Source of the DNA: Bedellia somnulentella
Lineage: Eukaryota; Arthropoda; Insecta; Lepidoptera; Bedelliidae
Reading direction: 5' to 3'
NCBI GenBank assembly: GCA_963576735.1
Contig: OY755197.1
Location: forward strand, 4,104,501-4,168,500
Length of the DNA stretch: 64,000 nucleotides
Of the stretch, positions 9,285 through 63,080 are shown in pieces (the first letter of the stretch is position 1; every line of letters starts with the position of its first letter). The notes under the pieces were generated by a model. It worked only from the letters and a program-made list of their open reading frames with translations, was not told the origin of the DNA and did no database searches. A program made the position numbers and the translations under genes.

Positions 9285-9440
9285 AAGAATAGCCTGCCCC
9301 CTATCACGTGAGTACACTGTCCATGCAAAACGTGGGTACTCTGAACACCAGGTTACAAAGTCACGTGATGTTCAGAAGTATTAGTACCTCTGCTAACCCC
9401 TTCGGGGATATTCGGCGTGAACGTTTATGTTATGTTATGT
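9285..9440 (+). mobile_element. Beta SINE, 5'-truncated
   Basis: Begins inside the body at GCCTGCCCCCTATCACGTG and keeps a perfect 3' module, CCCCTTCGGGGATATTCGGC, followed by (TTATG)n. Confidence 0.88.
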
Positions 9441-9913
9441 TTATTTACATGAATAGCATACGAGTACAGGAATAACAATATATCTATTTAACTTAATAAC
9501 ATTAGCTTCTCAATTAACCTAACGCACATTAATATCGTACATGATAAATTTTGATTTAATTATGTGAGCCGATGGATTAATACTCAGTTAAGTGGAAACC
9601 AGCCATCTATGCAATTAGGTGGGGGAAGGGTAGGGGGTGTATCGTGGAGCGAACTCGCGGTAGACACCCTCTTGGCTTCCGGTGGCTGCCTCTTTACCCA
9701 AAGATTAATAAATTATACAGAAAGTACACGTACTGTGACATTTCCGCTGATTCTTTAGCCAGAAAAGATGTTTATGATATATAGATTCTTTTAACAGTTA
9801 TTGTATGATAATAACAATGGTCAATGATGAACCGTCAAGAATACATAAAGAGTAAGTTTTTTTTAATATACATAAACATAACATAAACTTTCATTTTAGT
9901 TCGAATCCATCGT

Positions 9914-10050
9914 TGGAGACCCATCACCAACAATCTTCATTTCACCATCTTTTCCTCACGCAACTTGCAAAAGTGGCTGAGGAATTTCTAATTTCCTAGC
10001 TCTGGCTACCCCTTCAAGGGATTTATAGCTGTGAGTATGTATGTATCTAA
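9914..10050 (+). mobile_element. Alpha repeat, 5'-truncated, with target duplication
   Basis: Begins at GGAGACCCATCACC and ends at the GTATGTATC tail. An 11-bp direct repeat GAATCCATCGT flanks it (9903-9913 and 10051-10061). Truncation at the 5' side only, together with a target duplication, shows insertion by reverse transcription from the 3' end. Confidence 0.9.
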
Positions 10051-10621
10051 GAATCCATCGTCGACTTTGTTTATATGTATGTTTAGGTACCTCTATCAGG
10101 TTTTCTTTTCTCTACTTTCTGGTACTCAGTACTTCTACGAATGCACACACGCCAAGACATGTGTATATTTAAAAACAAGTACAGAGATATATGTGTTTAC
10201 AAACAGATTTACAACAACTTCGTGTGCAGAGTCTACAATTTCATTCATCATTAAGTTCAACGCATGACAATTTGCCATCACTTTAACAATGTCCATGAAG
10301 AATTTGTCCTAGATATCTCAACAATCATGTCGAATCTCATGTCTAACATTTTAAAGTTAAAGTCCAACTTAAAAAAAGTGTTCAGTGCAGTTTTCAGTTT
10401 ACAACATAGCAGAATGCCTTTCAAAACCATCTGACAAATAAAGTAACATTAGTAGATGTCATGCAAATACATCGTATTTAGTTGGAAACATTCCCAACTC
10501 ATACTATTCTGCTCATACATGACAGCCAGTGCGACCGACAGTGCATCTGCTACTGTTCACAATAGTTTGTTTGTTAGCTTTACAAATACAGTAAATGTAA
10601 TGGAAATTCTAGTATTTCATA

Positions 10622-10869
10622 GATACATACATATACTCACGGCTATAAATCCCTTAACGGGGTGGCCAGAGCTTTGGAATGAGAAATTCCTATGCCACTT
10701 TTGGAAGTTGATTGGGGAAAAGATGGTAATAATAAATGTTTTTGGTGACGGGTCTCCAACCGCATCGCCCAAAAACCACTTAAAAAGCCCCTATACCCTT
10801 AGTCGCCTCTTACGATCACCCACGGGTAGAAAGGGGTAGTGTTATTCTAAGCCGACACTACACGGCAAA
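10622..10869 (-). mobile_element. Alpha repeat, full length, with 23-bp target duplication
   Basis: Complete copy on the - strand (5' end near 10865, GCCGTGTAGTGTCGG). Flanking direct repeats at 10599-10621 and 10870-10892 match at 22 of 23 positions (core TAGTATTTCATA). An open frame over 10456-10839 is only read-through of the repeat and is not a gene. Confidence 0.92.
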
Positions 10870-11231
10870 AATGGAAATTTTAGTATTTCATAAAAGTGTT
10901 AATATAAGGAAACGGTGACATCTATAAAGTCAAGTTTGACCCGGCAGTACTTTGACGACAACTATAGTTTTATAATGTAATACATTTATATTTAATTTAG
11001 TTTAAAAAAAAAAAAAAAGTTCTCTGCAGTATAATCATATTGATTATTACAAAGTAAACATAACCTGTTTTTTCCTTAGGCTAGCAAGATAATTATAATT
11101 ATATGTGAAGATTTGTAAATGGCTAAAAGATAATTTATTAAGTTTGTATCAAAAAGTTTTAATGCTGTAAATCTTCCAAATAAAATAAAATAAAAAAAAT
11201 AAAATAAACCTGGAAAATACCTAATGAAATT

Positions 11232-11420
11232 CCATACGTACGTGTGTTCATGGCTATGAATCCCAATAAGGGGCAGCCAGAGCTTTAGAGCTGGAAACTG
11301 CTCAGCCACATATGAAAGTTGATAGGGGCAAGATGGTAGTAATAAAGTATCGTTGGTGATGAGTTTCGAAACGCATTGCCCTAAAACCACTTGAAAAAAC
11401 CCCATACCTTAATTCGCTGT
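11232..11420 (-). mobile_element. Alpha repeat, 5'-truncated
   Basis: Reads on the - strand from the AAGGTATGGGGTTTTTTC region to the CACGTACGTATGG tail. The A/T-rich TAAAATAAAAT run at about 11176-11205 to its left belongs to the flank. Confidence 0.75.
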
Positions 11421-11572
11421 GAGGCCGTGAGGATATGATAGTCCAATGGGTAGAACACCCACCCGAAAACAGAAGGGCGTGAGTTCCAATCCTGGGTCGA
11501 GCCTACGTCAATTTGTCTTTTCTAAAGTCATATGTGTGGTTAATTTGTCATGGTTGTTATCGGTGCACATAG
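11421..11572 (+). mobile_element. Beta SINE, 3'-truncated, tRNA-like head
   Basis: Keeps the head (ATAGTCCAATGGGTAGAAC box A region, GAGTTCCAATCCTGGG box B region) and the linker CAATTTGTCTTTTCTAAAG, then stops after GGTTGTTATCGGTG. Loss of the 3' end is unusual for a SINE and points to later deletion. Confidence 0.75.
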
Positions 11573-11836
11573 GGACAACACCCTCATTTACGACGACAAA
11601 AATCAATTTATTTCATGAGCTTAAATCAATAAATTATTACATATTTAGTTAGACCGATGAACGAAGCATCGCTTGGCAAACAAAAGAAATTCCAGGTAGC
11701 ATCCCAATTTTTTTTGTGACTTACCGAACCAAGCGTTTGTCTCACGCTCAAACAATAGCCCAGTTGCCCTCGGAAATTCAACGAAGTAACTAGTCCCGTC
11801 TTGTGTTTTGTGCTCAACAATTGTGAAGGTTTTACC

Positions 11837-12169
11837 ATGGAAAGTGAAGCTACAGGTATGGCGTTTATTTCGTATATTTCTAATCTAAGTTTTAATGGGT
11901 TTTAGACGTAAGTTTCATCGATTTACCAGAACTCTTAATTTTACTTTAAAAAATCCATAACCTTACATTTTTATAGAGCTTTAAAAAAAGTTAGGCATAG
12001 TTAAGCCTAGTCTATTAATTTATTGGCTTTAACAACTTTTTGTTATTGTAATGTTATAGAAATTTGCGTCCCTTTTTTTCCCCTTGGTTAAATATTGCCT
12101 TTTTTCGCAGGTAGTCGTAAAGTGACGAGAAATGAACTGTTTGGTGTATTAAGAAGTGAAAATTTTTGA
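11837..12169 (+). CDS. Candidate two-exon micro-gene (about 25 residues)
   Basis: Exon 1 starts with ACCATGG, a strong start context (ATG 11837-11839), and ends at 11855 before GTATGG. A 255-bp gap follows, ending with the pyrimidine-rich acceptor TTGCCTTTTTTCGCAG at 12095-12110. Joining 11855 to 12111 keeps frame (phase 1) and gives a short peptide, MESEATGSRKV to SENF, with TGA at 12167-12169. AATAAA lies at 12373-12378. Each signal is seen; the gene is inferred. No family is recognised. A competing reading is a - strand open frame of about 80 codons over 11643-11883 with no start codon. It could also be the 5' end of a longer transcript or a non-coding RNA. Confidence 0.3.
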
Positions 12170-12451
12170 TTGAAGAATGAAAATACGTGATTCTGTGTAT
12201 AAAGGAATCCGATGTATATTTGTTTAAGCGTAGTTAACCATTATAGGGGTAATACAAAGATTGAAGAAGAAATTCGATCGTTTACCTGAGCCATAAAGAT
12301 ATACAAATTGATGTGCTAAGCATTAGTTATAAAAACAAAGTAAAAACACTTGAATTTTTGTTTAAACAGTGAAATAAAGACCTTAACAGTAAAAATATAA
12401 AATTAAAAAAAAATCTAGATTTTTGTCGCCCTAAGTAAGTAATCTGTCCCT

Positions 12452-12690
12452 GTGTGCGGTGAGGGAAAACATCGTGAGAAAACCCACATAGCTAAGTTGT
12501 ACTTAGTCATGTGACAGTGTATTCGTACAAAACGGCGATAGGCCTGCCCCCTATCACGTGAGTACACTGTCCATGGAAAACGTGGGTACTCTGACCACCA
12601 GATGACAAAGTCACGTGATGTTCAGAAGTATTGGTACCTCTGCCAACCCCTTCGGGGATAAACGGCGTGATGATATGTATGTATGTATGT
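12452..12690 (+). mobile_element. Beta SINE with an Alpha-type TATG tail
   Basis: 5'-truncated Beta starting near GTGCGGTGAGGGAAAACATC. Its 3' module CCCCTTCGGGGATAAACGGC is followed by GTGATGATATGTATGTATG instead of the usual (TTATG)n. The tail type of Alpha and Delta on a Beta body is direct evidence that the families share tail machinery. Confidence 0.87.
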
Positions 12691-13104: not shown

Positions 13105-13137
13105 GATGAAATATAATGAATGATGAAAGAATAAATG

Positions 13138-13497: not shown

Positions 13498-13690
13498 TAT
13501 AAATATATAAGGACACATTATACACAGATCAAGATATCCCCAAAATAAGTCAAAAATGTATATAAATAACTTCCGAGACTAAGAGAAACAATCATTCATG
13601 ATCAACACATAAATGTGGCTCTCAGCGGGAATCGAACCTGCAACCTCCGGACCGAGAAGCTAGTCACCTATCCACTCGGCCACGGACGTC
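13498..13690 (-). mobile_element. Phi tRNA-derived SINE
   Basis: The - strand starts with a good tRNA-like head: GTGGCCGAGTGGATAGGTG (box A) and GGTTGCAGGTTCGATTCCCG (box B), 13615-13690. A body ending GATCTGTGTATAATGTGTCC follows, at 13512-13531. The same body occurs on the + strand at 17378-17581, so it is a dispersed SINE and not a functional tRNA gene. Confidence 0.85.
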
Positions 13691-14536: not shown

Positions 14537-14542
14537 TAGATA

Positions 14543-14788
14543 TATAGAGCCAATGTGGAAGGTAATGTTAGTAGAGGACGACCTCGGAGGACACATTTGG
14601 ATCAAATAGAAAATGTGCTCAAAAAGGCAGGTGTCCGCAGTATGAAGAATAAAAGAGCATGTATGAAAAGATTGATGGATGTAAACGAAGCCAGAGAGGT
14701 TTGCCAGGACCGTGCAAAGTGGCGATCGATAGTCTCTGCCTACCCCAATGGGAACTAACGGCGTGAGAATATGTATGTATGTATGTAT
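14543..14788 (+). pseudogene. Delta RTE-like LINE, ORF 3' end with tail
   Basis: Encodes the last about 70 residues of the LINE polyprotein: RANVEGNVSRGRPRRTHLDQ, then NEAREVCQDRAKWRSIVSAY and PNGN, stop at 14756-14758. ATATGTATGTATGTATG follows within 30 bp. The very short 3' UTR and microsatellite tail fit RTE-clade LINEs (family knowledge). It is 5'-truncated and cannot act on its own. Confidence 0.85.
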
Positions 14789-16580: not shown

Positions 16581-16940
16581 ACTACACCCGTGGGCTGAAA
16601 GGGGTAGTAACATTCTAAGCCAGCACTACGCAAATATATATGATATTTATAAGACTGTGTAGTGTCGGCTCTGCTGTGTAGTGTCGGCTCTGCTGTGTAG
16701 TGTCGGCTTAGAATAGCGCTACCCCATTTCTACCGGTGGGTGTACGTAAGAGGCGACTAACGGTATTGGGGCTTTTAAGGGAACATTGAGCGATGCGGTT
16801 GGAGACCTATCACCAACAACCTTTATTATGCAATTTTTTCCTTACTCAGCTTTCCAAAAGTGGCTGAGGAATTTCTAATTCCTTAGCTCTGGCTACCCCT
16901 CCTAGGGAATTATAGCCGTGAGTATATGTATGCATGTATG
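16581..16940 (+). mobile_element. Composite Alpha dimer (head-to-head), truncated
   Basis: An inverted Alpha 5' piece (16581-16632) and a 22-bp linker AAATATATATGATATTTATA lead into three tandem 19-bp copies of the Alpha 5' end (16655-16673, 16674-16692, 16693 on). A complete + strand Alpha runs from there to 16940. The first 130 bp are almost identical to 56365-56496, so the dimer moved or was copied as one unit. Confidence 0.88.
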
Positions 16941-17377: not shown

Positions 17378-17860
17378 AGCCGTAGCCGAGTAGATAGTTG
17401 CCCAGCTTCTGGGTCCGTAGGTTGCGGGTTCGGTCTCCGCTGATCCATGTAACGATTGTTTCTTAGTCTTGGGTGTAATTTATATGTGTATTATATATCA
17501 TTAAATATATCGTTGAGTAAGTATTCCATAATGCAAGTTTTACTAAGTTTGGGGCTGAATTGATCTGCGTATAATATGTCCACATACATTTACTCACGGC
17601 TATAAAACCTTGAAAGGGTAGCCAGAGCTAAGGAATCAGAAATTCCTCAGCCACTGTTGGAAGTTGCGTGGGGAAGAGATGGTGGAATAAAGGTTGTTGG
17701 TGATGGGTCTCCAACCGCATCGCCCAAAAATCCCTTAAAAGCCCCAATACCGTTAGTCGCCTCTTGCGTACACCCACCGGAAGAAATGGGGTAGTGTTAT
17801 TCTAAGCCGACACTAAACAGCAATATAATATGTCCGTATATATTTATTTATACTGTTCCT
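17378..17860 (+). mobile_element. Phi tRNA-derived SINE, split by an Alpha insertion
   Basis: Head CCGTAGCCGAGTAGATAG and GGTTGCGGGTTCGGTCTCCG (17384-17445), then the Phi body to GATCTGCGTATAATATGTCC at 17562-17581. After the Alpha insertion it resumes at 17824 with TATAATATGTCCGTATATAT and a TTTATTTA tail. Confidence 0.87.
17582..17823 (-). mobile_element. Alpha repeat nested in Phi, with 12-bp target duplication
   Basis: Full-length - strand Alpha. TATAATATGTCC is duplicated on both sides (17570-17581 and 17824-17835). Because that sequence belongs to the Phi consensus end, the insertion point is exact. Confidence 0.93.
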
Positions 17861-20345: not shown

Positions 20346-21285
20346 TTAAAATCTTGAACTAAACATATTGAATTAAAATTTAAACATAAAAACAAACATG
20401 AAAAATAATAATACTGAGAACATAATATAAATTAACATAATATAATTCAGATTAACATAATATCTCTACATTTCAGCCATGAAAGTAATTATTCCATTAA
20501 TTCAACAAAGCGCTTCTACTATATTATTTACTTATTATTTATTTATGTATTTATTAATATATTATTATTCTAGTTTAAATGTTTTGGTGCCACATATACG
20601 GCAAATAAACGTATTTTATTCTCTCTTCTTTCAAGTGTTTCATTTTTTTATGCTGTTCTTTAAATCTAAGTAAAGTTATATATGTTTTGTCTTATATGTA
20701 TTAGAATCATAGCCATTTACTCGAAATCGAAAGTTTTTTTCTTTCAAATTGTTTACTTACTACTTATACTTACATACATCTTAAAAGCTCCTGCAACGTT
20801 GGTAAAATTACCTGAAAACAAAAAACAATTATTTTATTTTAAATGCGTAGAATTGGTAAATATTGTAAAACATGATTAGTTCGATCACATATAAATTTAA
20901 GTTCCTTCAAACTTTCTTATATGTATATAAATAAAAAATGAACAAACATAAGTTTGTTTATGTGCTTTTAACAAAGCTAACTTCAAATAACAGTTGTATA
21001 CAGCTTTATCATACCAAAATCTATTAATTTTCTTCCCCAATCCTTCCCATGTGAACCAGGGTTAACATCTGCAAGAGAGCGCGTACCTTACGTCGCATGA
21101 TGCCCTCAAGATGCTAATCAGCTTCACATTATATCACGTATGACTTCTACTTGCAAGTAAGACTTTGGAATATGTCTTTTTTTGTAGAAAACAATATCAA
21201 GAAAAAAAAATATCGCTGAAACAAAATCAAATAAAAAAAACATGAGTTTTCACCAAACAATACATTTCAAGCGCATTTTATGTAT
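20346..21285. other. Very A+T-rich stretch without genes
   Basis: Short frames at 20479-20879 are low-complexity (Leu/Ile/Tyr/Phe-rich) and look like chance. Nothing else is supported. Confidence 0.45.
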
Positions 21286-21537
21286 GCTGTATAGTGTCGG
21301 CTTAGAATAGCACTACCCCATTTCTTCCGGTGGGTGTACGTAAGAGGCGACTAACGGTATTGGGGCTTTTAAGGGTTTTTGGGCGATGCGGTTGGAGACC
21401 CATCACCAACAACCCTTATTTTACCATCATTTCCCCACTCAACTTTCCAAAAGTGGCTGAGGAATTTTTAATTCCTTAGCTCTGGCTACCCCTTTTAGGG
21501 ATTTATAGCCGTGAGTATATGTATGTATGTATGTATG
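21286..21537 (+). mobile_element. Alpha repeat, full-length reference copy
   Basis: Best intact example: 5' GCTGTATAGTGTCGGCTTAG, CCGGTGGGTGTACGTAAG, GGGCGATGCGGTTGGAGACC, AAGTGGCTGAGGAATTT, then the 3' hairpin GGCTACCCC...GGG...TAGCC, GTGAGTATATG and (TATG)n. No ORF and no tRNA-like head are seen. GGTTGGAGACC differs from the Pol III box B consensus at one core base, but no matching box A is evident, so the promoter type is unknown. Confidence 0.92.
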
Positions 21538-22383
21538 TTTTATAATGTCAGAGATGCACGTTACACTGTTGATTTAATTTGTTAATATGTTTTAAATTAA
21601 GAATATTTATTGTTTTTGGGTTATCTTTGCTTATAGATAGATTGGTGCAATTGGATTACCCTGTAAAGAGTTATGTGTGATTAAAAACAAATACATACGT
21701 GCCGAATTGATAAATTCCTTCGATTTAAGTCGGTTAAAATATACAGCGATAGATCAAAAGCGGATGGAGTGATTAATTTAAACAAACTAAATTTATCTTC
21801 CCCCTTAATCTTGGTGGTATATAACTAGTATTATAATTTATTTGTTATGTTCTTTATACCGGTGTGTATGTATGTTATATATGTCCAAGTATCTTTTCCA
21901 CCATAACTTTTATAATCATCGTCAATATCAGACAAATGATGTGACATATAAATATATATAGTGGAACTGCTTTTGGTACAAAGTAATTATTTTAGTAGTA
22001 ATGAAGGTTCGGTCGGACGCTGCCCAACTTTAAATAACGTACCTATCCATTAACAAATTTGTATATCAATTGTTTTTATTTTTCGTGTTCATAAGCCCCA
22101 TTTTTTGTTGTTTTTTTTGTGACCACACTAGTTGTGTTGTTGACAAGACAATAGTAAACTATCAAAATTATGTAGTAAAAAGTTTCACGTAGGAAACATC
22201 TAAAAATCGTACCGAATCAATAACCTCCTAGATTTTGCGTCGTTTTTTCTTATGTTTATGAGTTATTATATATAATTTCATATATAGGTGTCTATAGATT
22301 TTGATTGACCTACTGTAAACAAAACTCTAAGGGTGCGAGTCCACCAGAGAAGTGTAAGAATAATGTAATTTTAAACAACCTTC
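21538..22383. other. No gene recognised
   Basis: A+T-rich sequence without a convincing frame or repeat family. Confidence 0.4.
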
Positions 22384-24425: not shown

Positions 24426-24856
24426 ATAAATTTAATTAAACCTCTGCTTTTTATTTTGTTGCAACTGCTACCATTACGCAACAGTTAAATATACTACAAG
24501 ACTTTCTGTTAGGTAAAACGTGAAATCGTCCATAGTCAGTATAGAATAAGTTTTCTTACTGTACTGAAAACTAATTTCATCAATACATTTTATAGGAGAG
24601 CGTTACTGAAACGTTGTTTGTACTTAATAGACCTTAAAGTGTAGAAATTAGGGTCGAATCTCGCTAAATACGTCACGTTCCTTGATTAAACTACAACCCT
24701 TGGTTTCGTTACGTGATTTCCTTTGTTTGAACAAACAGTTTGGTAATTAGACAAACACAGCATGTACAAGATCTGAACATAACTTAGAGTTGTAATGTTT
24801 TTTTTAAAAATACTTTATAGCTATTATTACACGACACAACTTGGTTACAACTTGGT

Positions 24857-25222
24857 TGACAACCGTGATAGCCCAGTGGGTAGAACACTCGGTTATCGTG
24901 CAAACGACTAGTGTTCAAACCCTGGGTCGGGCCTACACCAATTTGTCTTTTCTAAAGACATATGTGTGGTTAATTTATCATGGTTGTTAACGGTGAGGGA
25001 AAACATCGTGAGGAAACCCACATGGCTGAGTTGTACTTAGTCATGTGACAGTGTATTCGTACAAAACGGCGATAGGCCTGCCCCTTATCAAGTGAGTACA
25101 CTGTCCATGCAAAACGTGGGTACTCTGAACACCAGGTGACAAAGTCACGTGATGTTCAGAAGTATTAGTGCCTCTGCCAACCGCTTCGGGGATATTCGGC
25201 GTGAACGTTTATGTTATGTTAT
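24857..25222 (+). mobile_element. Beta SINE, reference copy with perfect 13-bp target duplication
   Basis: Head GATAGCCCAGTGGGTAGAAC (box A-like) and GTTCAAACCCTGGGTCGGGC (box B-like), body with GTGAGGGAAAACATCGTGAG and ATCAAGTGAGTACACTG, 3' module ending GGCGTGAACG(TTATG)n. GTTACAACTTGGT is present at 24844-24856 and again at 25223-25235. It is an SINE moved by an external LINE reverse transcriptase (family knowledge). Confidence 0.95.
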
Positions 25223-25235
25223 GTTACAACTTGGT

Positions 25236-25636
25236 ACAAATATACGTGGGGAGTGGACGTGTAGAGTGATTCGCCATGTAAGTCTAAGTTAGACTAGGAC
25301 TTTCATGCAAATTGCGATTTAACTGAATTGAGCTGAGCGAGTTAGGTAAGGGGTTTTCTGTGATTATTCTTCAATGGTAGGTTAGCAATGTCCATTTGAT
25401 CACTCTGCTAAATTTGGTTGAAATCGGTCGAGCCGTTCCAGAGGAGTTAATTCACAAAGAAGTGACCTACCCGCGTATAAGAGCATAACTATGGGTTAAC
25501 TTGTAACCGTACTCTTCGTACCATGTCGTGTAAAAAGTCGCTAAAAATATCATACTAGGTATTGCACGTTACCGTGACTATATTGACTATATTTCTGAAA
25601 AAGAGTAACCACTTTTTGTATCTTATAATGGACCAA
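25236..25636. other. No gene recognised
   Basis: Contains a trace of a diffuse repeat (GAAATCGGTCGAGCCGTTCC at about 25420-25439). I see nothing coding. Confidence 0.4.
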
Positions 25637-31164: not shown

Positions 31165-31590
31165 ACATACATACACACATACATACTCTCACGCCGTTAG
31201 TTCCCGTTGGGGTAGGCAGAGATTATCGATCGCCACTTTGCATGATCCTGGCAAACCTCTCTGGCTCCGTTCACATCTATTAATCTTTTCACACATTCTC
31301 TTTTATTCTTCATATTTCGGACACCTGCCTTTTTGAGCAAATTTTCTATTTGAACCAAATGTGTCCTACGTGGTCGTCCTCTACTAACATTACCTTCCAC
31401 ATTGGCTCTATATATCTCTTTCACCAGTTTACTGTTATCCATTCTCTCTTAATGCCCAAACCATCTCAACATTCTTTTTTCTATCTTTCTTACAATATCA
31501 TCTTTTACACAACCCATTTATGCTGCATTCACTCTGCTTTCATGCATCTTCTTCCACACCCAACATTCACTGCCATACATGAGAAAAAGT
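31165..31590 (-). pseudogene. Delta RTE-like LINE, long 3' fragment
   Basis: The - strand frame 31442-31197 reads MDNSKLVKEIYRANVEGNVS, then RGRPRRTHLVQIENLLKKAG to AYPNGN. Further 5' (31450-31585), broken frames give MHESRVNA- and VKDDIVRKIEKG-like segments, as in RTE-type elements. The tail (CATACATA on the + text) is at 31165-31185. It runs into a Beta SINE on its 5' side. Confidence 0.82.
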
Positions 31591-33384: not shown

Positions 33385-34972
33385 GAATCCGGCCTACACC
33401 AATTTGTTTTTTCTTTAGTCATATCTGTGGTTAATTTATCATGGCACATGGTGAAGTTGTACTAAGTTATAAGACACTGCATTTGTACAAAAACGCGTGT
33501 CCCCTATCACGTCAGTTCACTGTCCACCAGGTGACGTGATGTTCAAAAGTCAAAAAAAAAGTCAAAAAGTTTATTTTTCAAAATTAAGTTAAAAATTAAC
33601 ATTTTTTGAACGTCAAATTTTTTTAAATTTATCATTAGTCCGTTGCTTCGGAAGGTGTTCGTAAAGAGAAGAAGCAACAAAGAAACTCTTTACATTCACA
33701 TTTTTTCATTTTTTCAAAACATGGTTTGTACAATTTCAGTTTATTAACATGTTTTTACTTTATAAAAGATTTTCTATGCGACAAAACCAAACGCTAGTTT
33801 GACATATTTAAAATAAATTGTCCATCACAAAAACCAATCACATAACGTGAGAAGAAAAATCCTCACCAGACAATTATTCCTAGGAATAACGAGGGAAGAT
33901 TTATAGCTTTACGGACACGGTCATGTGCGAGTTGGGTCCTTGTCGTTTAAAAAATCTTGAACACTGTAGTAAGACTTCTTTAAAAGCATGGCTTTTATTG
34001 CCTTTTTAAAAGATGCCACAGGCAATTCCAATATGTCAGAAGGAAGTTTGTTGAACATTTTCAGGGATAGTCCCATAAAGGAGTTACTTACTTTATTAAG
34101 TCTCCACTTCGGTACGTGAAGTTTGTCCTTATTTCGAGTGTTAACAGTATGCCTATCACTAACTTTACTAAATTGGCCTATATTCTTTTTGGCATACATT
34201 AAATTCTCAAATATGTATTGGCAAGGGACAGTTAAAATGCCAATTTCTTTAAATTTTTCGCGCAACGAATACCTCGACCTCAACATGTAAATAGATCGGA
34301 TAGCTCGCTTTTGTAAGACGAAAACTTTATGAACATCAGCCGCTTTACCCCATAATAAAATACCGTACGACATAATACTATGAAAATAACTGAAATACAC
34401 AATGCGAGCTGTTTCTACGTCTGCTATTTCTCTAATCTTACGCACGGCATACGCTGCTGAGCTCAGCCTTTTAGAAAGTGTTAGTATATGGGGTCCCCAT
34501 TGCAACTTAGAATCGATTATTATCCCTAGGAATTTTGTTTCTTTCACTAATTCTACTTGTTCACTATCAATAACAATATTGTTATCAACTTGCCTAACAT
34601 TCGGTAAAGTAAATTTAATACATTTAGTTTTTTTGGCATTTAGAACCAGGTTATTTACAGTAAACCAATGCAATACCAGTGAGATAGCTTTATTTACGTC
34701 GTCAAGAGATGTAGAGGATCTCGCTACATTAAATATTAAAGATGTGTCATCTGCAAACATAACTATCTCAGAATACTTTTGTACCATAAATGGTAAATCA
34801 TTAATGTAAATCAGAAACAGTAATGGGCCAAGTATAGAACCTTGAGGAACGCCCATCTCTATTTCCGATCCTTCCGACGTGGTTCCATTAATATCAACCT
34901 TAACCAAGAGTATTAGTACCTCTACAAACCCCTTCGGAGATATGCGGCGTGAATGTTTGAATGTTTGAGTTT
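33385..34972 (+). mobile_element. Beta SINE split by a LINE
   Basis: Left part 33385-33550 (CGGCCTACACCAATTTG to GTGATGTTCAAAAGT). Right part 34912-34972 (ATTAGTACCTCTACAAACCC, CTTCGGAGATATGCGG, GTGAATG tail). Both parts are needed to rebuild the family consensus order. Confidence 0.85.
33551..34904 (-). pseudogene. Jockey-superfamily LINE, 5'-truncated RT, nested in Beta
   Basis: The - strand frame of 328 codons ends at 33921. It holds RT motif B (GVPQGSILGPLLFLIYIND) and motif C (VMFADDTSLIF), the thumb, and a C-terminus with MFNKLPSDILELP and KKSYYSVQDFL. Motif A and the endonuclease are missing, so it is dead. The 3' UTR (33920-33560) has TTCTTCTCTTTACGAACACC then TTCCGAAG, and the tail is A-rich (33551-33570). 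CAAAAGT (33544-33550) and CAAGAGT (34905-34911) look like the target duplication. The frame is intact over 328 codons, which suggests a fairly recent insertion. Confidence 0.9.
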
Positions 34973-35155
34973 GAGATCATAATAGGATGTAATCTAAACG
35001 ATGCATACAATCTGTATGACACAAAAGGCTTAAATAAACCTTCTTCCAGCGAGAGTCATAAGGGACAAATTCAAGATTTTTAAATTAATTGTTGGTGAAA
35101 GAACAATATTTAAAGCAAAATTTTTTTGATCCACGATATCTCAAGGGTGTGTGTA

Positions 35156-35320: not shown

Positions 35321-35700
35321 CCGTGACAACCGTGATAGCCCAGTGGGTAGAACACTTGGTTATCGTGCAAGCGACTAGTGTTCGAATCCTGGGTCGGGCC
35401 TACACCAATTTGTCTTTTCTAAAGACATACGTGTGGTTAATTTATCATGGTTGTTAACGGTGAGGGAAAACATCGTGAGGAAACCCACATGGCTGAGTTG
35501 TACTTAGTCATGTGACAGTGTATTCGTACAAAACGGCGATAGGCCTGCCCCCTATCACGTGAGTACACTGTCCATGCAAAACGTGGGTACTCTGAATACC
35601 AGGTGACAAAGTCACGTGATGTTCAGAAGTATTTGTACCTCTGCCAACCCCTTCGGGGATATTCGGCGTGAACGTTTATGTTATGTTATGTTATGTTATG
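35321..35700 (+). mobile_element. Beta SINE, full length, 12-bp target duplication
   Basis: Intact copy with head at 35325-35400 and four TTATG units at the end. TATATATTTCGC is duplicated (35309-35320 and 35701-35712). Close to consensus, therefore young. Confidence 0.95.
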
Positions 35701-38569: not shown

Positions 38570-40290
38570 TTCACTTATTCCCTCTATTTATTATCTAACG
38601 TCTTAATAACGTCGAAACGGAATTTGGCCTTAGAAGAAGCAAAAGGATCAGTTTCACCAAAGAGGTTATTAAATTGATTGGCAAGGCGAACCATTGTAGA
38701 ATTCCTTGCATAATTAGTATGATTAGAGTCTATAGAAAAGAGCCTTTCAGAAGTGTGCCGAGTACGGCGATGTGGAGTACAAAATGACAGTTGGGACAAC
38801 AAAAATGGAGAATCAAGGCGACCAGAGAGAATGTCGTGTAACAGCATCATGTCCAGTAAAACTCTGCGATCCTTAAGACTAGTGAGCTGATGCCTGCGAC
38901 ACGAATCCTCATATGAGCAACCGAAAAAATGAGTCCTGTAGTTAAGATGTTTTAAAAATTTAGATTGTATACGTTCAATACGTTGAATGTACGTTATGTA
39001 GTTTGGGGACCAGACACTGGATGCGTATTCGAGAATACTCCTAACGTAAGCATAATAAATCTGTTTTATACACATCAGATCGTTAAAGGGCTTCGAAATG
39101 CGCATTACAAATCCAAGGTTGCGAAATGCACGCCCCGTAATATGCTCAATGTGCTTTTCAAAAGTAAGTTTACTGTCGAGGATGACACCCAGGTCACGGA
39201 TGGATTCAACGCGTACGAGAGGTTGGTCGTTGATGGAATAATTATAAACAACGGGGTTTAGACTTCTAGTGAATGATATTTGGACGCATTTACTAGCATT
39301 CACCGAGATCCTGTTCTGGTCATAATACTGAGCAAGACGATTGAGATCCGACTGTAGCTTATCGCAATCAGTATTATTTGCTACATCAAGGAAAACCTTT
39401 TTATCATCCGCATACAACAAGAACCTGCATTCATGAAATACTGTATAAATATCATACAGATAGGCATTGTAAAAAAGAGGGCCTAAATGTGAGCCCTGAG
39501 GTACACCCGAAGGGATATAATAGAAGTCCGAATTATACCCACCGACGACTACAGCCTGACATCTGTTAGAAACGTAAGATGTTATCCAGCGATGGAGGTC
39601 ACCATGTATTCCAAGATGGAATAGTTTGCGCAGCAGTATGATATGGTCAACGCGATCGAAAGCCTTCTCAAAATCGGTGTAGACTACATCAACCTGCTTA
39701 CGTTTATCCATATTAGGAAGAACAAAGTTCAGGAATTCAGTCAGATTACTTACAGCAGATCGGCCTTTGAGAAATCCGTGCTGCTGTGGCGGTATACCAC
39801 GAGAAATAAACGGATAAATGCAGTTATATATAGCCTTTTCGAATACCTTACCAAATACATTAAGGATAGATATCGGTCTGTAATTATCGATCTTATTTTT
39901 TGTACCTTTTTTGTGTATCGGAAGGATGTGCGCTTTCTTCCAAATCGTTGGAAAAAAGCCTTCTTTAAGGGATCTATTAAATAAGATACATAATGGGTGG
40001 CATAATTGTTTAGCACAGCGCACTACAAAATAAGGGGGTAAACAATCACTGCCACCACCACCATTAGTGTCGAGTGAGTTTAATAATTTTAGGATAGAGT
40101 CCGGAAGAAACTGACAAGAGCTAATAACATTACCATCATCACAGAATGGTGGAGCAAGCGGTGGAAAGGAATAGGATAATGCTGGTTTACTGAACACTGA
40201 GTGGAAGAAATCATTAAATCCTTTGCAAATGCTTGGTCCATCAGAGTTCGAAAACTTTTCAGTTATCATGGTCACGGGAAGACTGAGGTG
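38301..40290 (-). mobile_element. Jockey-superfamily LINE, 5'-truncated
   Basis: Extent inferred from the A-rich tail on the - strand ((AAAAT)n at 38310-38345) to the point upstream of the RT frame where a stop appears (about 40290). The 3' UTR contains (TG)n and (TA)n tracts at 38511-38570. The endonuclease half and any ORF1 are missing. Confidence 0.8.
38584..40266 (-). CDS. Reverse transcriptase of a non-LTR retrotransposon (intact RT domain)
   Basis: About 560 uninterrupted codons ending at 38584; the first ATG of the frame is at 40269-40267, next to the truncation. In order: fingers motif ILPIHKKGTKNKIDNYRPIS, motif A VVYTDFEKAFDRVDH, motif B SGVPQGSHLGPLFYNAYL, motif C LLYADDKKVF (the catalytic YADD), then thumb/C-terminal DLGVILDSKLTFEKHIEHI and VWSPNYITYIQRIERIQ. 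All three catalytic Asp are present. A complete ORF2 of this group is 900 or more residues with an N-terminal APE endonuclease, so this copy cannot insert itself by the usual route. Lack of frameshifts argues for recent arrival. The exact clade within the Jockey superfamily is not resolvable by eye. Confidence 0.88.
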   Translation of the reverse strand: MTEKFSNSDGPSICKGFNDFFHSVFSKPALSYSFPPLAPPFCDDGNVISSCQFLPDSILKLLNSLDTNGGGGSDCLPPYFVVRCAKQLCHPLCILFNRSLKEGFFPTIWKKAHILPIHKKGTKNKIDNYRPISILNVFGKVFEKAIYNCIYPFISRGIPPQQHGFLKGRSAVSNLTEFLNFVLPNMDKRKQVDVVYTDFEKAFDRVDHIILLRKLFHLGIHGDLHRWITSYVSNRCQAVVVGGYNSDFYYIPSGVPQGSHLGPLFYNAYLYDIYTVFHECRFLLYADDKKVFLDVANNTDCDKLQSDLNRLAQYYDQNRISVNASKCVQISFTRSLNPVVYNYSINDQPLVRVESIRDLGVILDSKLTFEKHIEHITGRAFRNLGFVMRISKPFNDLMCIKQIYYAYVRSILEYASSVWSPNYITYIQRIERIQSKFLKHLNYRTHFFGCSYEDSCRRHQLTSLKDRRVLLDMMLLHDILSGRLDSPFLLSQLSFCTPHRRTRHTSERLFSIDSNHTNYARNSTMVRLANQFNNLFGETDPFASSKAKFRFDVIKTLDNK

Positions 40291-40361: not shown

Positions 40362-40893
40362 TTTATTTTTACTTTTGTATACATTCTCTACTAACAATAG
40401 CACCCTAAGATTAATGTATGTACTAACAAAATTATGGATTAGCATTGTCCGAAATAAAATGCATATAACAAAAATTGCTTGGTGATGCATGATGTGGTTG
40501 TCTTCTAACATAAACATAAACATACATAAACGTTCACGCCGAATATCCCTTCGGGGATATTCGGTCGTTGGCAGAGGTACTAATACTTTTGAACATCACG
40601 TGACTTTGTCATCTGCTGTTCAGAGTACCCACGTTTTGCATAAACAGTGTACTCATGTGATAGGGGGCAGGCCTATCGCCGTTTTGTACGAATACACTGT
40701 CACTAAATGAATACATTACATTAATGAATGAATACATTGTCTTCTAAATGAGTCTTTATTTATTTTTGTTATTTGTACATAATTTTTAATTTTTTTTTTA
40801 TTTTGTATACATTCTCAACTAACAATAGCACCATTAGCACCCTAAGATTAATGTATGTAATAACAAAATGGATTTGCATTGAACGAAATAAAT
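40362..40893. repeat. Two copies of a LINE-like 3' end flanking a Beta insertion
   Basis: 40371-40461 and 40795-40893 both contain TTTTGTATACATTCTC, ACTAACAATAGCACC, CCCTAAGATTAATGTATGT and GAAATAAA. The second copy has a small internal CACCATTAG duplication. The A-rich ends suggest LINE 3' UTRs; a long duplication around an inserted element is the alternative. Confidence 0.75.
40508..40736 (-). mobile_element. Beta SINE, head lost
   Basis: - strand copy from TGACAGTGTATTCGTACAAA to the CATAAACATACATAAACG tail at the left. The hairpin region is expanded to CCCTTCGGGGATATTCGGTC. TTGTCTTCTAA flanks it at 40498-40508 and 40737-40747. Confidence 0.85.
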
Positions 40894-46682: not shown

Positions 46683-46850
46683 AAAGAACAAATAAAGGAA
46701 AGAAAAATTTCGACACAGGCGGGAATCGAACCTGCGACCTCGGGTATAAGCCCCCGTCGCTCTGCCAATTGAGCTACCGTGTTAATGGCTGCCAGCGCGA
46801 AATTCTTCTATCCTTTGTTTCTTTTAAACTTTTAAGTAGTGTTTGCGTTA
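46683..46850 (-). mobile_element. Gamma tRNA-like repeat, intact copy
   Basis: On the - strand: upstream body CACTACTTAAAAGTTTAAAA, D-arm GGTAGCTCAATTGGCAGAGC, T-arm GCAGGTTCGATTCCCGCC, then GTGTCGAAATTTTTCTTTCC and TTTATTTG. The tRNA-like part lies in the middle, not at the 5' end. Its anticodon region does not form a proper arm, so I call it a tRNA-derived repeat, not a tRNA gene. Confidence 0.8.
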
Positions 46851-50998: not shown

Positions 50999-51035
50999 TA
51001 TACATATACTCACGCTATTAGTTCCCATTGGGGTA
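50999..51035 (-). mobile_element. Delta LINE, last 40 bp
   Basis: ATATACTCACGCTATTAGTT then CCCATTGGGGTA on the + text. Only the terminal hairpin and tail remain. Confidence 0.7.
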
Positions 51036-54965: not shown

Positions 54966-55468
54966 CTTAATACTCACGGCTATAAATCCCTTAAAAAGGT
55001 AGATAGAGCTTACATAAAAAAAACCGCCACTTTAGGAAGTTAAGTTAGGTAGTGCTATTCTAAGCAGACTACCCAGCAATAATAAAGAACATACATACAT
55101 ACATACATATACTCACGGCTATAAATCCCTAGAAGGGGTAGCCAGAGCTAAGGAATTAGAAATTCCTCAGCCACATTTGGAAAATTGAGTTGGGAAAGGA
55201 TGGTAAAGTAAAGGTTGTTGGTGATGGGTCTCCAACCGCATCGCCCAAAAATCCCTTAAAAGCCCCAATACCGTTAGTCACCTCCTACGTACACCCATCG
55301 GTAGAAACGGGGTAGTGCTATTCTAAGCCGACACTACACGGCAAATACATAATACATAATACTCACGGCTATAAATCCCTTAAAAAGTAGCTTATATAAA
55401 AAAACAGCCACTTTAGGAAGTTAAGTTAGGTAGTGCTATTCTAAGCAGACTACACAACAATAATAAAA
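54966..55468. repeat. Long direct repeats (about 115-120 bp) flanking an Alpha
   Basis: 54966-55088 and 55355-55468 both read AATACTCACGGCTATAAATC, CGCCACTTTAGGAAG (CAGCC in the right copy), TTAAGTTAGGTAGTGCTATT and CAATAATAAA. Each is itself an Alpha deletion derivative on the - strand. An intact Alpha sits exactly between them, so the whole derivative appears to have been duplicated at insertion. Confidence 0.9.
55089..55354 (-). mobile_element. Alpha repeat, full length, nested
   Basis: - strand: 5' GCCGTGTAGTGTCGGCTTAG near 55343, tail (CATA)n on the + text at 55089-55110. Confidence 0.92.
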
Positions 55469-58333: not shown

Positions 58334-58590
58334 CAAGCTGTGTAGTGTCGGCTTAGAATAGCACAACCCCATTTCTTCCGGTGAGTGTACGTAAGAGGCG
58401 ACTAACGGTATTGGGGCTTTAAAGGGATTTTTGGGCGATGCGGTTAGAGACCCATCACCAACAACCTTTACTTTACCATCCTTTCCCCACTCAATTTTCC
58501 AAATGTGGCTGAGGAATTTCTAATTCCTTAGCTCTGGCTACCCATTCTAGGGATTTATAGCCGTGAGTATATGTACGTATGTATGTATGT
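58334..58590 (+). mobile_element. Alpha repeat with perfect 17-bp target duplication
   Basis: Full-length copy. AATTTTATTGAAATAGA is present at 58317-58333 and 58591-58607, immediately after the (TATG)n tail. Confidence 0.95.
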
Positions 58591-58745: not shown

Positions 58746-58816
58746 GTAAAACTAAAATTATATTTTTTTATATCTGAATTTCTGAGTGAGACGAGGTAAA
58801 TTAAACCATTCTATTG

Positions 58817-59104
58817 CATATATACATACATATACTATATATATATAAGCTATAAACCCCGTTAAGGGATTTATAGCCGTGAGGCTATAAATCCCTTAAC
58901 GGGGTAGCCAGAGCTTTGGAATGAGAAATTCCTCAGCCCGTTTTGGAAGTTGATGGGGGAAAAGATGGTAATAATAAATGTTTTTGGTGACGGGTCTCCA
59001 ACCATATCGCCCAAAAATCACTTAAAAAGCCCCTATACCCTTAGTCGCCTCTTACGATCACCCACGGGTAGAAATGGGGTAGTGTTATTCTAAGCCGACA
59101 CTAC
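58817..59104 (-). mobile_element. Alpha repeat with snap-back 3' end and 12-bp target duplication
   Basis: ACCATTCTATTG flanks the insert (58805-58816 and 59105-59116). Inside, the normal - strand Alpha ends at about 58886. It is followed by an inverted second copy of its own last 40 bp (58850-58884), so the 3' end is palindromic. Confidence 0.9.
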
Positions 59105-59116
59105 ACCATTCTATTG

Positions 59117-59521: not shown

Positions 59522-59766
59522 TGCTGTGTAGTGTCGGCTTAGAATAACACCCCATTTCTGCCGGTGGGTGTACGTAGGAGGGAACTAACGGTGTTGGGGC
59601 TTTTAAGGGATTTTTGGGCAATAAGGTTGAAGACCCATCACCAACAATCTTTATTTTGCCATCTTTTCCCCACACAACTTTCCAAAAGTGGCTGAGGAAC
59701 TTCTAGTTCCTTAGCTCTGGCTACCCCTTCTTGGGATTTATAGCCGTGAGTATGAGTATATGTTAA
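59522..59766 (+). mobile_element. Alpha repeat, full length
   Basis: GCTGTGTAGTGTCGGCTTAG to GCCGTGAGTATGAGTATATG, with a small deletion (ATAACACCCC) near the 5' hairpin. Confidence 0.9.
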
Positions 59767-59888
59767 TGTACTCATGACTCTTAGAAGGTTCAAAATAATC
59801 CTACCTCCCCTGTTTTTAGGCCCATTAGGGTTTTCGCTACATAACGTATTTAATACAAATTGATGCACCGGGGGTTTTATTTAGGACC

Positions 59889-60282
59889 AAAATTTTTATT
59901 TATTTATTTATTCATAAATATAACCATTACAGATTTTTATAACCCAATTCGGCTATACTTCACATTAAGACAATATATTCATAAGCTTACAAACAAAGAA
60001 AGAAATTTACCACATTACACACAAATTAAATTTTACAAACCGTAACACAAAAAATATAAAGCTACGCTTGTAAAGTGAGCCTAGGAACAAAAAAAATAAA
60101 TCTGTTTGTTCGGCAATATGGTTTACCGCGACTATTGCGCGCGTAAGTGAGCTCTCACTCAGTAAGTTGGTACGCGATGCAGGAACTGCTAGATGACGAC
60201 CCAGCCGCCGTCTAAGCGCACCACTTGGTACGTTCAGTCGAAGTAGTTTATATTCAAGAATACATAGTTCAATGCAATACAT
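59889..60282 (-). pseudogene. LINE RT C-terminus, 5'-truncated, in the intron of the next gene
   Basis: The - strand frame ending at 60007 reads RLGRHLAVPASRTNLLSESS, then LTRAIVAVNHIAEQTDLFF. I recognise the R-T-x(3)-S-x-LTRA pattern as the end of R1/CR1-like reverse transcriptases. A 90-bp 3' UTR and an (AAATA)n tail at 59891-59915 follow. Confidence 0.6.
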
Positions 60283-60324
60283 AATTTAGTATTGACTATA
60301 TAAAAATGTTCAAAGAACACTTAC

Positions 60325-60496
60325 CTGGTTTACTAACGGGATGGGTGACCGGTGCAGTTGGTGTTGTCGCCGTGTTTGGGGGGTAGACAGGGTCACAGCA
60401 TTCTCGTTCTGGAAACTCACTTCCTTCCACCCTCATCACTATCACTAAAAATAACACTAAACCTCCGAAAAGCCTTTTAAACCCTCTTGGACACAT
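60325..60496 (-). CDS. First coding exon of an unidentified secreted or membrane protein
   Basis: On the - strand, ATG at 60496-60494 (context GAGCAATG) opens MCPRGFKRLFGGLVLFLVIV MRVEGS: a basic start, an about 14-residue hydrophobic core and a small-residue cleavage-like site, i.e. a signal peptide. The mature start EFPERECCDPVYPP has a Cys pair, followed by a Thr/Pro-rich stretch (NTATTPTAPVTHPVSKP). The frame ends in CAG|GTAAGT (donor 60324-60319), phase 1. An in-frame ATG lies further upstream (60655), giving an extended form with a Lys-rich leader. TCAGTG at 60718-60713 is initiator-like. The next exon must lie left of 60319, beyond the LINE at 59889-60282, and was not found. I do not recognise the family. 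Confidence 0.55.
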
Positions 60497-60889
60497 TGCT
60501 CTTATTAATTTTCGAGCCCCAATATAGAACTTTTTCTGCCCAAAAGTTGTAAAATTTGAGATCTTAAAAATGTCACATGACTTGCTTTCTTTCTTTTTCT
60601 GCCTTTCTTGAGTTTCTTTCTCATTTTTGTTTAAAACTTTTCCGAGTTTTTGCATGGACTTATTTAATTACATCACAAAATAAACTGTATTTTTTTTGGT
60701 TTTACCACTTTCACTGAGAAATTTTAAATGTCCTTACAGTTCTATGTTGTCCATTTTGAGATTAAAAAAATAATAAAAAATCTGTTAAATTATTGAAGCT
60801 GTTAAATTAATAAGATCATGATTGCTAAACTTGAAACACAAGAAGAAATTTGCAATATGATGAGTTTTGAAATAGTTATACAATAGGAT

Positions 60890-61133
60890 AGCTGTGTAGT
60901 GTCGGCTTAGAATAGCACTACCCCATTTCTTCCGGTGGGTGTACGTAAGAGGCGACTAACGGTATTGGGGCTTTTAAGGGATTTTTGGGCGATGCGGTTG
61001 GAGACCCATCACCAACAACCTTTATTTTTACCATCTTTTCCCCACTATCATTTCCAAAAGTGGCTGAGGAATTACTTATTCCTTAGCTCTGGCTACCCCT
61101 TCTAGGGATTTACAGCCGTGAGTATATGTATGT
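60890..61133 (+). mobile_element. Alpha repeat, full length, 8-bp target duplication
   Basis: AATAGGAT occurs at 60882-60889 and 61134-61141. Sequence is very close to the reference copy. Confidence 0.94.
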
Positions 61134-61141
61134 AATAGGAT

Positions 61142-61632
61142 TGACTTATTGTAAATCAGACTTAAAAATCCGAGGGAAATTTTATAAAAGCGACCACAAA
61201 TAGACAGATTTTTCTTTCAATGTCTCAATGTTTAATATTATTTGGATTTTCGTTATATTAATAGAGCCTTTTAAAAGAAAATAACCTCTAAAAGGTATTT
61301 ATTCAAAGTAGTCAGTGGGTTGGACCAACATAATTAAGAAATGCCATGACTCTCAAAAGTTTAACCATATTTGACAACTATAAAAGAAATATTAATTGAT
61401 TAATTGACTTCTACTGGTAAATGATGTTTTAATTTCAGTCATCGTATTGAAAAAATCTTCTATGTTATTAGTTTTATGCAGGGTAGAAGGTAAAAATGTA
61501 GAAAAGATTTTTGTTCATAATTTAAGTTCAGACATAATCACATATGAATCTTTTATTGCCACCATCACTGTTACTGAGAATCAAAAATATCTGCATATGG
61601 GTATCACTAATAGGATTTTCTAATAACTACAC
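61142..61632. other. No gene recognised
   Basis: Nothing supported. Confidence 0.4.
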
Positions 61633-61644
61633 CTTTACATTATT

Positions 61645-61896
61645 ACATACATACATACATATGGCTATAATTCCCTAGAAGGGGTAGCCAGAGATAAGGA
61701 ATTAGAAATTCCTCAGCCACTTTTGGAAAGTTGGGTGGGGAAAAGATGGTATAATGAAGGTTGTTGGTGATGGGTCTCCAACCGCATCGCCCAATGTTCC
61801 CAAAAAAAGCCCCAATACCGTATGTCGCCTCTTACGTACATCCACCGGTAGAAATGGGGTAGCGCTATTCTAAGCCGGCGCTACACAGCTATACAG
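61645..61896 (-). mobile_element. Alpha repeat, full length, 12-bp target duplication
   Basis: CTTTACATTATT occurs at 61633-61644 and 61897-61908. The GTGAGTA of the 3' module is lost (reads ATGGCTATAATTCCC on the + text next to the tail). Confidence 0.94.
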
Positions 61897-61908
61897 CTTT
61901 ACATTATT

Positions 61909-62842
61909 CTTTAACGATAGTATTATAATCGAATATGATGGCCAAATATCCCAACCACGGTAGGCTCAACCTCCTCAGAAGGGCAAGCACGAGCGCTATT
62001 TTATCGACACGATGACGGTTAGAATGAGATGGTAGCATAGGATACTAAGTACGTGCGTAAGAGATGGTTGCTTTATCCCACGCGATAACTAGTTTAAACA
62101 CCGCTCGTGCTTCCCCGGTTGTGTATGGATTGTGCTAGTAATATACTTGAAAATGATTTCATACATTTTCTACATACAATTAAATTGAAACAAAATTATG
62201 TGGTTCAATATGGAACACCCCCTTTACCTATACCCTACATAGTTTTCACCTTTTCATCGATGACTTCCATAATTCATCAATCAATGCCCATACCGCATTT
62301 CAGCCCATCCATACAATTAAATCGGAATTCATCTAAAAACGTTAAAAATAAGACGGCAAAATCGTATAAATTTAATTCCTAATTTGCTATCAAACTTTCT
62401 GTATGAAATTCTAACGAAATATTACTTTTCTCTGTCAAAAACTTTCTCTATTATGTAAAGAGATCCCATTAGATTAATAGCAATTAAACGACTTTCATTT
62501 TTTGTTAAGTTTTTCTCCTAAATGTAATTTTACGTTAATTTTCTTTAGATGCCAGAATCTTGTAGGGAATGAGGGAAAAATAATAGCTTTTATTATGTGA
62601 TTCGCGTTTCAGTCTGAAAGTTTAAATGAGTATTTTATCTACGAGTGTATAAAAATATAAGTTGACGTGACATTGGGAAAAATAAATGACTATTGTTAAA
62701 AAAACATAATTTTCAAAAAGAAAAATACTTTATTTTTTATATACCGATTTTTTAAGAAACAAATTGTAGTGCAGTCACATATTCTTTGCTACAGAAATGT
62801 GTTAAATTTTACAGATTTTTTCATAAAATTATAAATATACGT
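61909..62842. other. No gene recognised; short inverted repeat
   Basis: AAGCACGAGCG at 61985-61995 and CGCTCGTGCTT at 62103-62113 are inverted and 107 bp apart, a possible tiny MITE or regulatory hairpin. Frames here lack support. Confidence 0.35.
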
Positions 62843-63080
62843 CACTGCATTTATTCCCATTGGAGTAAGCAGAGACTATACTCTATTATAATAAGTTATT
62901 TAATTGGTTTCCCAAGATACAGGCTGTGTCTAGTTTGGGAACCCCTGTAAATGGACAAAGCTGTATTTTTTTTAATAAATGTATTTTTACTTTTTTTTAC
63001 TTTACTAACGATCGCCACTTTGTACCATCACGGCATACCTCTTGAGCTCAATTTACATCATGAATATTTTCTTGAATACT
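62843..63080 (-). pseudogene. Delta LINE 3' end, split by a LINE insertion
   Basis: Parts 62843-62882 (TTATTCCCATTGGAGTAAGC, AGAGACTATA) and 63007-63080 (ACGATCGCCACTTTGTACCA) are contiguous in other Delta copies. Confidence 0.75.
62883..63006 (+). mobile_element. LINE 3' end nested in Delta
   Basis: TTTCCCAAGATACAGGCTGT, GTTTGGGAACCCCTGTAAAT, then AATAAATGTATTTT at the 3' end. It interrupts Delta precisely; ACTA-type bases at both edges may be the target duplication. Confidence 0.7.

Follow-up and report, generated by a model that had tools for sequence, protein, structure and literature searches.

Three families of dispersed repeats in a 64,000-base stretch of the genome of the lepidopteran Bedellia somnulentella (positions 4104501-4168500 of contig OY755197.1, "the window" below) terminate in the same ~35-base 3' module followed by a TATG or TTATG tail, and one of the three is quite probably the partner of the other two. 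The families are Delta, a long interspersed element (LINE), Alpha, a short element with LINE-like ends, and Beta, a short interspersed element (SINE); Delta's reverse transcriptase (RT) would prime on RNAs that carry the common 3' end. The genome searched comprises 549 Mb in 486 contigs. The collection of 3' ends (109 Alpha, 34 Beta and 34 Delta) comes from the window and an outside sample of 20 stretches of 10 kb (200 kb), set non-randomly at rounded positions on large contigs. A single reference per family served as BLAST query, and each copy had to include the start of the module, so badly decayed or cut copies were lost before counting. In the 200 kb from 20 places Alpha accounts for 6.9% of the sequence, Beta for 2.9% and Delta for 4.9%, together about 15%.

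The example copies that a first-pass annotation of the window had quoted lie where it placed them, and its claim that one 3' module ends all three families is well borne out. In the window, the pattern CTCTGSCWACCCC-N2..6-GGG-N4..9-GSCGTGA is matched exactly 17 times, as against zero times in 100 dinucleotide shuffles, and when the family 3' cores are aligned pairwise the scores are reached by 0 (Alpha-Beta), 1 (Alpha-Delta) and 0 (Beta-Delta) of 2000 dinucleotide shuffles. One pattern match of the Alpha and Beta forms each, and the Delta form of the module, are:

21480..21514, forward strand: shared 3' module, Alpha form, outer triplets GGC...GCC
35639..35671, forward strand: shared 3' module, Beta form, outer triplets GCC...GGC, inner stem CCCC-TTC-GGGG
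14734..14766, forward strand: shared 3' module, Delta form, its 5' strand in codons S-A-Y-P, the stop codon in the spacer and its 3' strand in the 3' untranslated region (UTR)

In a loosely matched set of 110 modules (window, sample and further loci, with six loci that duplicate others left out) 47 carry GGC/GCC as their outer triplets and 35 carry GCC/GGC, the mismatched combinations GGC/GGC and GCC/GCC do not occur, and the remaining 28 are single-base and other departures from the two matched states. The compensatory outer-stem swap that had been proposed is therefore real as a pattern, with neither mismatched swap among the 110, but it is a single difference that separates Alpha from Beta and Delta. 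TATG is the tail repeat of Alpha and of most Delta copies. Delta tails are of the types GAGAATATG-(TATG)n, GAGTATATG-(TATG)n and GAGTATAAG-(TAAG)n; the Alpha tail, GAGTATATG-(TATG)n, is identical to one of these (GTGAGTATATGTATG). Young Beta copies end in GTGAACGTTTATG-(TTATG)n and older ones in GTGAACGTTTGAG (TTGAG-like). The Alpha core letters and the C-terminal peptides were not found in the literature text searched, and the full module has no exact match among viral contigs, where 15 contigs with its first part look unrelated by eye.

Delta is a complete LINE. The first-pass annotation had predicted that a LINE with this 3' end exists in the genome, and an intact, very young copy of ~3.4 kb (L011) encodes endonuclease and RT; the Delta module forms its 3' end, and TTGCTACATG, its target-site duplication, flanks it on both sides. 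Its frame has 1051 uninterrupted codons with Pfam RVT_1 (residues 608-848, 3e-35) and Exo_endo_phos_2 (2e-8); PF03372 lies just under its cut-off, and RNase H was not found by Pfam at E up to 0.001. About 200 bases separate the start of the element from this open reading frame (ORF), leaving little room for an ORF1. The protein ends RSIVSAYPNGN-stop and is followed by ~11 bases and the TATG repeat, and the module spans the ORF terminus, so its predicted overlap with the last codons (SAYPNGN-stop) and the short 3' UTR is confirmed. A protein search of the genome gave at least 44 copies that are 98-100% identical to the L011 frame, of which 32 are stop-free and 12 have one or two stops; 43 span all 1051 residues and one spans 6-1051. 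These 44 are the best of 68,528 first-look candidates, and the LINE copy number is therefore a lower bound. The near-identity and intactness of these copies suggest that the LINE has undergone a recent burst and can probably still move. Other Delta copies are 5'-truncated at varying points, which is what target-primed reverse transcription yields; those in the window found by BLAST include:

14538..14786, forward strand: 5'-truncated Delta LINE copy, 99% identical to L011
28768..29058, forward strand: Delta fragment, 93%
31169..31519, reverse strand: Delta fragment, 92%

Delta has the single ORF with apurinic-type endonuclease and RT, without RNase H or ORF1, and the very brief, tandemly repeated 3' UTR that characterize RTE elements. 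It is thus RTE-like in anatomy, by which the class was judged, and a system of such a LINE with non-autonomous elements is well supported. We take the C-terminal part of its protein to be of RTE type as well. The closest named relatives among the 120 matches listed are from Phthorimaea, Plutella and Tuta and carry no clade names; a Plutella protein is 70% identical. Against PDB structures the protein scores higher with L1 ORF2 (2.5e-34) than with R2 (5.9e-23), and no relatives of it were found in viral contigs.

Alpha, which the first-pass annotation had regarded as unrelated to Delta, shares the 5' end of this LINE. The copies that display its structure best are:

21285..21545, forward strand: Alpha, near full length, with a LINE-like 5' part of ~85 bases, a ~110-base body ending in the hairpin H0 (see below), the module and a TATG tail
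21284..21370, forward strand: LINE-like 5' part of this same copy, with 85% identity to L011 reverse strand 4369-4453 (BLAST)
58337..58590, forward strand: Alpha copy with a 17-base target-site duplication

In BLAST comparisons with the loci the first ~85 bases of L011 match Alpha 5' ends at 77-91% identity, and a local alignment of the first ~400 bases of the LINE with the Alpha copy at 58337 scores 97, where the maximum of 200 shuffles is 26. An Alpha-like 5' end is present in all three full-length LINE copies examined at their start (L011, L010 and a C2 copy seen through L059). The alignment of L010 with L011 begins at the first base of this stretch and runs on across the leader into the ORF; the Alpha-like stretch is hence the LINE's own 5' end, and Alpha is therefore a two-ended LINE derivative: both ends of this ~240-base element are homologous to its partner LINE, as expected of a LINE-derived non-autonomous element. 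The view of Alpha as an unrelated SINE was accordingly rejected, its 5' end being that of the LINE. Its ~110-base body has no match to the LINE; the similarity of the part upstream of the module to the LINE ORF (AAAGTGGC) is non-significant (137 of 2000 shuffles score as high). No tRNA-type A or B boxes were seen in the first ~125 bases, and one copy compared with Rfam had no match above chance. Target-site duplications of at least 9 bases flank six of 13 copies (17, 12, 10, 10, 9 and 9 bases), two of the six being doubtful since the match lies at least 40 bases beyond the end of the element. Alpha stretches of at least 200 bases are 72-100% identical to one reference, with a median of 88%. 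The first ~20-22 bases are tandemly repeated at the 5' end of an Alpha near window positions 16660-16720 and of the LINE copy seen in L059 (1-45).

The homology could have arisen in the opposite direction, with an older Alpha from which the LINE acquired a new leader by template switching. The median Alpha identity of 88% is lower than the 98-100% of the LINE copies (which were picked as the best), and tandem repeats of the first ~20 bases are common to both elements, two points in favour of this order of events. However, the comparison was made with young LINE copies only, no old diverged full-length LINE among them, and Alpha has neither a recognisable tRNA head nor a notable Rfam match, so the LINE leader is the simpler source; we consider descent of the LINE's 5' end from Alpha improbable, and Alpha is treated below as derived from the LINE.

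Beta, judged by its head, is a tRNA-type SINE. The relevant copies are:

24857..25226, forward strand: full-length Beta SINE with tRNA-like head, A box TAGCCCAGTGG, B box GTTCAAACC, body, module, TTATG tail and a 13-base target-site duplication
12457..12690, forward strand: Beta copy truncated at its 5' end, its TATG tail resembling those of Alpha and Delta

The two boxes fit the A and B box patterns and begin at bases 13 and 57, 44 bases apart from start to start. The head was not called as a tRNA by ARAGORN (in the window) or Rfam (24840-25240), and one Beta copy has no Rfam match above chance. Target-site duplications of at least 9 bases are present in five of seven near-full-length copies (13, 12, 11, 9 and 9); those of the other two are 6 and 7 bases. 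Beta lacks the LINE 5' end (alignment score 22, shuffle maximum 25). The proposal of two SINE families on one LINE thus stands for Beta but not in that form for Alpha, which carries both LINE ends. The copy at 12457-12690 had been singled out before for its Alpha/Delta-type tail, and it does end in GATATG-(TATG)n, the only one of the 34 Beta copies to do so. We note that a Beta copy starts directly behind a Delta module and tail at 50999-51035 (reverse strand), which suggests that it landed in an older copy's TATG tail, and that two abutting Alpha matches near 55345-55384 resemble this arrangement. The stretch 11483-11565 matches Beta bases 57-139 at 90%, and tRNA-like heads of other SINE-like sequences are visible by eye at 11420-11510, 13618-13690 and 17378-17440.

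The shared ends, the target-site duplications and the intact LINE copies suggest that the Delta protein itself may mobilise both Alpha and Beta. A single ORF (apurinic-type endonuclease plus RT), preceded by a ~200-base leader and followed by a 3' UTR of about eleven bases and the TATG repeat, would supply a protein that nicks DNA, and the short tail repeat on an RNA could pair with the nick. Target-primed reverse transcription by the Delta RT would then most likely begin on RNAs whose 3' end consists of the CTCTG..CGTGA module plus a short tandem repeat. Non-autonomous RNAs of two types would be copied likewise, Alpha with its LINE-like leader and Beta with its tRNA-like head, the latter therefore presumably an RNA polymerase III transcript. 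By analogy with stringent LINEs, the protein may read a hairpin in the module, the P1-P2-P3 hairpin, and not its bare sequence.

The three-family consensus can be folded with CUCUGSC..GSC-G-U-GA outside and CCC/GGG inside, nine pairs in all, of which one is changed on both sides in 27 picked rows. This alignment and a 32-row Alpha alignment were hand-picked from the collected copies and are biased to intact ones; the unpicked covariation counts below use the full family collections (Alpha, 34 Beta, 34 Delta). The copies are related by descent, so the shuffle tests overstate significance throughout. Ten compensated cells are found against a shuffle mean of 5.3, a number reached by none of 500 shuffles, and one compensated pair against a mean of 1.1, which all 500 reach; the cells are in excess without the pairs because one change separates Alpha from Beta and Delta. 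The hairpin had been announced as covarying, and what survives of this is the excess of compensated cells over shuffles; one pair of nine, changed in one between-family event, is too little for strong covariation of the shared helix, which was rejected. When the partner strand is slid by 1-3 columns, pairing falls from 98% to 33-52%. The Alpha 3' end folds better than shuffles (z -3.3; 1 of 200 as good). Within families, compensated cells are not in excess at any pair of the Beta or Delta collections (34 copies each) or at any of the six P2 pairs of Alpha. Of the 13 Alpha pairs, the outermost, P1d, has a nominal excess (3 compensated cells against 0.5, p 0.005), followed by P1a (3 against 0.9, p 0.05) and P3c (2 against 0.4, p 0.055), these p values being uncorrected and from related copies. 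A shared helix is plausible from these alignments; its conservation is clear and its covariation weak. Two copies are folded back at this site: in an Alpha 3' end at 58857-58904, 22-base inverted arms surround GTGA exactly at the module, and in a Beta copy at 40539-40564 (reverse strand) the two strands of the module are perfectly complementary, with 11-base arms and a CGAA loop. Both palindromes may be traces of snap-back synthesis at the hairpin, at the RNA, cDNA or DNA level.

Compensatory change is better supported in H0, a hairpin that adjoins the module on its upstream side in Alpha only, than in the shared hairpin:

21461..21475, forward strand: H0, GGAATT-N3-AATTCC, with compensatory variants in other Alpha copies

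Fully paired variants are GGAGTT/AACTCC (one copy), GGAGTT/AGCTCT (four), GGAACT/AGTTCC (two) and GAAATT/AATTTC (two), which imply compensatory change at three or more pairs, and at one pair 77 of 107 copies have A-T where 14 have G-C. All six pairs are formed in 43 of the 99 copies (among 109) with an ungapped H0, where 5000 shuffles average 30 and never exceed 40. In the picked set of 32, double changes occur at four of five H0 pairs; for the whole named structure in that set, 37 of 500 shuffles match the number of double-change pairs and none the number of such cells. These figures are flattering because the copies share descent, and palindrome correction by template switching could be an alternative source of the changes.

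Several observations weigh against recognition of one hairpin by one Delta protein. The between-family covariation of the shared helices is one event; folding of the 3' end does not surpass that of shuffles in Beta (z +0.7) or in two Delta types (z +0.1 and -0.1); and RNAalifold on the longer Alpha alignment (32 rows) picks a local AGC/GCT hairpin over the outer helix. The young Beta tail (GTGAACGTTTATG-TTATG) is absent from all 34 Delta copies. A LINE ending in Alpha's GGC...GCC form did not turn up at the nine of 33 genome places that were examined; these proved to be eight Alpha copies and one decayed Delta copy, the latter carrying GGC/GCC triplets.

A rival reading is that the RT reads CTCTG, ACCCC, GGG, CGTGA and the tail as sequence, with an incidental hairpin and a C-G/G-C difference between Alpha and the other two composed of unrelated changes. 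Eight of the nine shared pairs are invariant or vary in at most two rows and are hence uninformative on pairing, within-family covariation of the shared helices is scant, and the Beta and Delta folds are no better than those of shuffles. Recognition of sequence explains the data almost as well as recognition of a stem-loop. It is less easily reconciled with the matched triplet states of 82 of 110 modules and the absence of mismatched swaps, the loss of pairing on sliding the partner, the fold of the Alpha end and the nominal excesses at P1d, P1a and P3c, and we regard it as a serious possibility, though not the probable one.

The Beta tail and the search for an Alpha-ended LINE bear on the partner. 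The absence of the young Beta tail from Delta means that Beta may have another partner LINE, and Beta, perhaps Alpha too, could be served by sister LINEs (for example ones ending in GTGAACGTTT-TTATG or GGC..GCC), making two or three parallel pairs. The Beta tails, TTATG in young and TTGAG-like in old copies, do differ from the TATG and TAAG of Delta, and Alpha's GGC/GCC differs from Delta's GCC/GGC, the sole Delta copy seen with GGC/GCC being decayed. Yet in the set of 110 no module was noticed that had a different LINE on its upstream side, and the TATG-tailed Beta copy suggests common machinery; separate partners are a real possibility that falls somewhat short of an even chance. A more elaborate form of the preferred reading, in which Delta serves both, is that the RT reads a hairpin lying across the LINE stop codon (SAYP codons and 3' UTR), which would put template recognition and the end of the protein under mutual constraint, and that Alpha, freed from coding, flipped one pair, added an actively maintained H0 and outgrew the LINE to ~7% of the sampled genome. 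This chain of steps we think rather unlikely as a whole.

The window contains two more RT open frames (Pfam RVT_1), at 38584-40290 (reverse strand, 568 codons stop to stop) and 33921-34976 (reverse strand, 351 codons stop to stop). Rfam at gathering scores reports one tRNA in the window, at 46711-46783 (reverse strand, 38.6 bits), which ARAGORN does not call. At another locus (L012, 2-4414) an uninterrupted 1471-codon frame lies upstream of a Delta copy; we presume that it resembles the polyprotein of a BEL/Pao-type long terminal repeat retrotransposon.

A close precedent is the system of Plutella and Spodoptera. PxLINE1 is a lepidopteran LINE of 3,228 bases with endonuclease and RT and a short 3' UTR that closes with ATGT tetranucleotide repeats (PMC8010984). 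Over its last 43 bases it shares 84% identity with the 5S-derived PxSE5, which over its own last 56 bases is 89.6% identical to the tRNA-derived SfSE1; (ATGTT)n tails occur in related SINEs of other moths (PMC8010984). Delta has nearly the same size, the same domains and an ATGT-type tail, and that it belongs to the same LINE family is a strong lead, the two being compared by description and not by aligned sequence. Unlike the module described here, the PxLINE1 end is not called a hairpin in the accessible portion of that paper (PMC8010984). In Helicoverpa armigera, HaSE1 and HaSE3, of different origins, have a common 3' end with HaRTE1 and a microsatellite tail (PMC3272025); that system differs in its TGA tail, and neither hairpin nor stem occurs in the text available (PMC3272025). 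The anatomy of Delta fits the Lepidoptera RTE described by Tay et al., with one ORF, a very short 3' UTR of tandem repeats and many 3'-terminal partial copies (PMC2887409); the available text of that study has no hairpin, stem-loop or secondary structure and mentions SINEs three times, not as partners. The Metulj SINE of Heliconius is suspected to be moved by an RTE LINE through its 3' end, and the part of the report at hand describes no shared structured module or hairpin (PMC6685494). As far as titles and the starts of abstracts show, no 3' hairpin in Lepidoptera SINE/RTE systems was found among the papers listed in literature searches. Alpha, with its LINE 5' start and LINE-like 3' end, is built like the mammalian Bov-A2, MAR4, RTESINE1 and RTE1-N1, which the sections available describe as RTE-derived short elements made from the LINE 5' end (PMC3747384).

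A SINE and a LINE with a common 3' end, as in the stringent type, are present here. In the stringent zebrafish L2 (ZfL2) the 3' stem-loop is read by the LINE protein, as mutation experiments are reported to show (PMC4176376), and a monocot L1/SINE pair has a common putative 3' hairpin with compensatory mutations, numbered 1-5 in the part of the paper available (PMC3747384). Alpha, Beta and Delta resemble ZfL2, the eel UnaL2 and the monocot pair, as far as these are described in the text available, in the common LINE/SINE 3' end, the putative hairpin and compensatory change (PMC4176376, PMC3747384); unlike the mutation-tested L2 stem-loop or the monocot hairpin, the shared helix here has one compensatory change. 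The 3' RNA requirement has been answered experimentally for L2 (PMC4176376) but not, for the RTE type, in the portions of the Lepidoptera RTE literature examined. With ~15% of the sample covered and dozens of near-identical intact LINE copies, Bedellia is a good natural system for the 3'-end requirements of RTE, and the GGC/GCC versus GCC/GGC contrast is a ready-made stem-swap experiment. Pairs of SINEs on one LINE are already published for Helicoverpa and for Plutella/Spodoptera; the present system belongs with these and has an unusual abundance and a useful natural stem swap.

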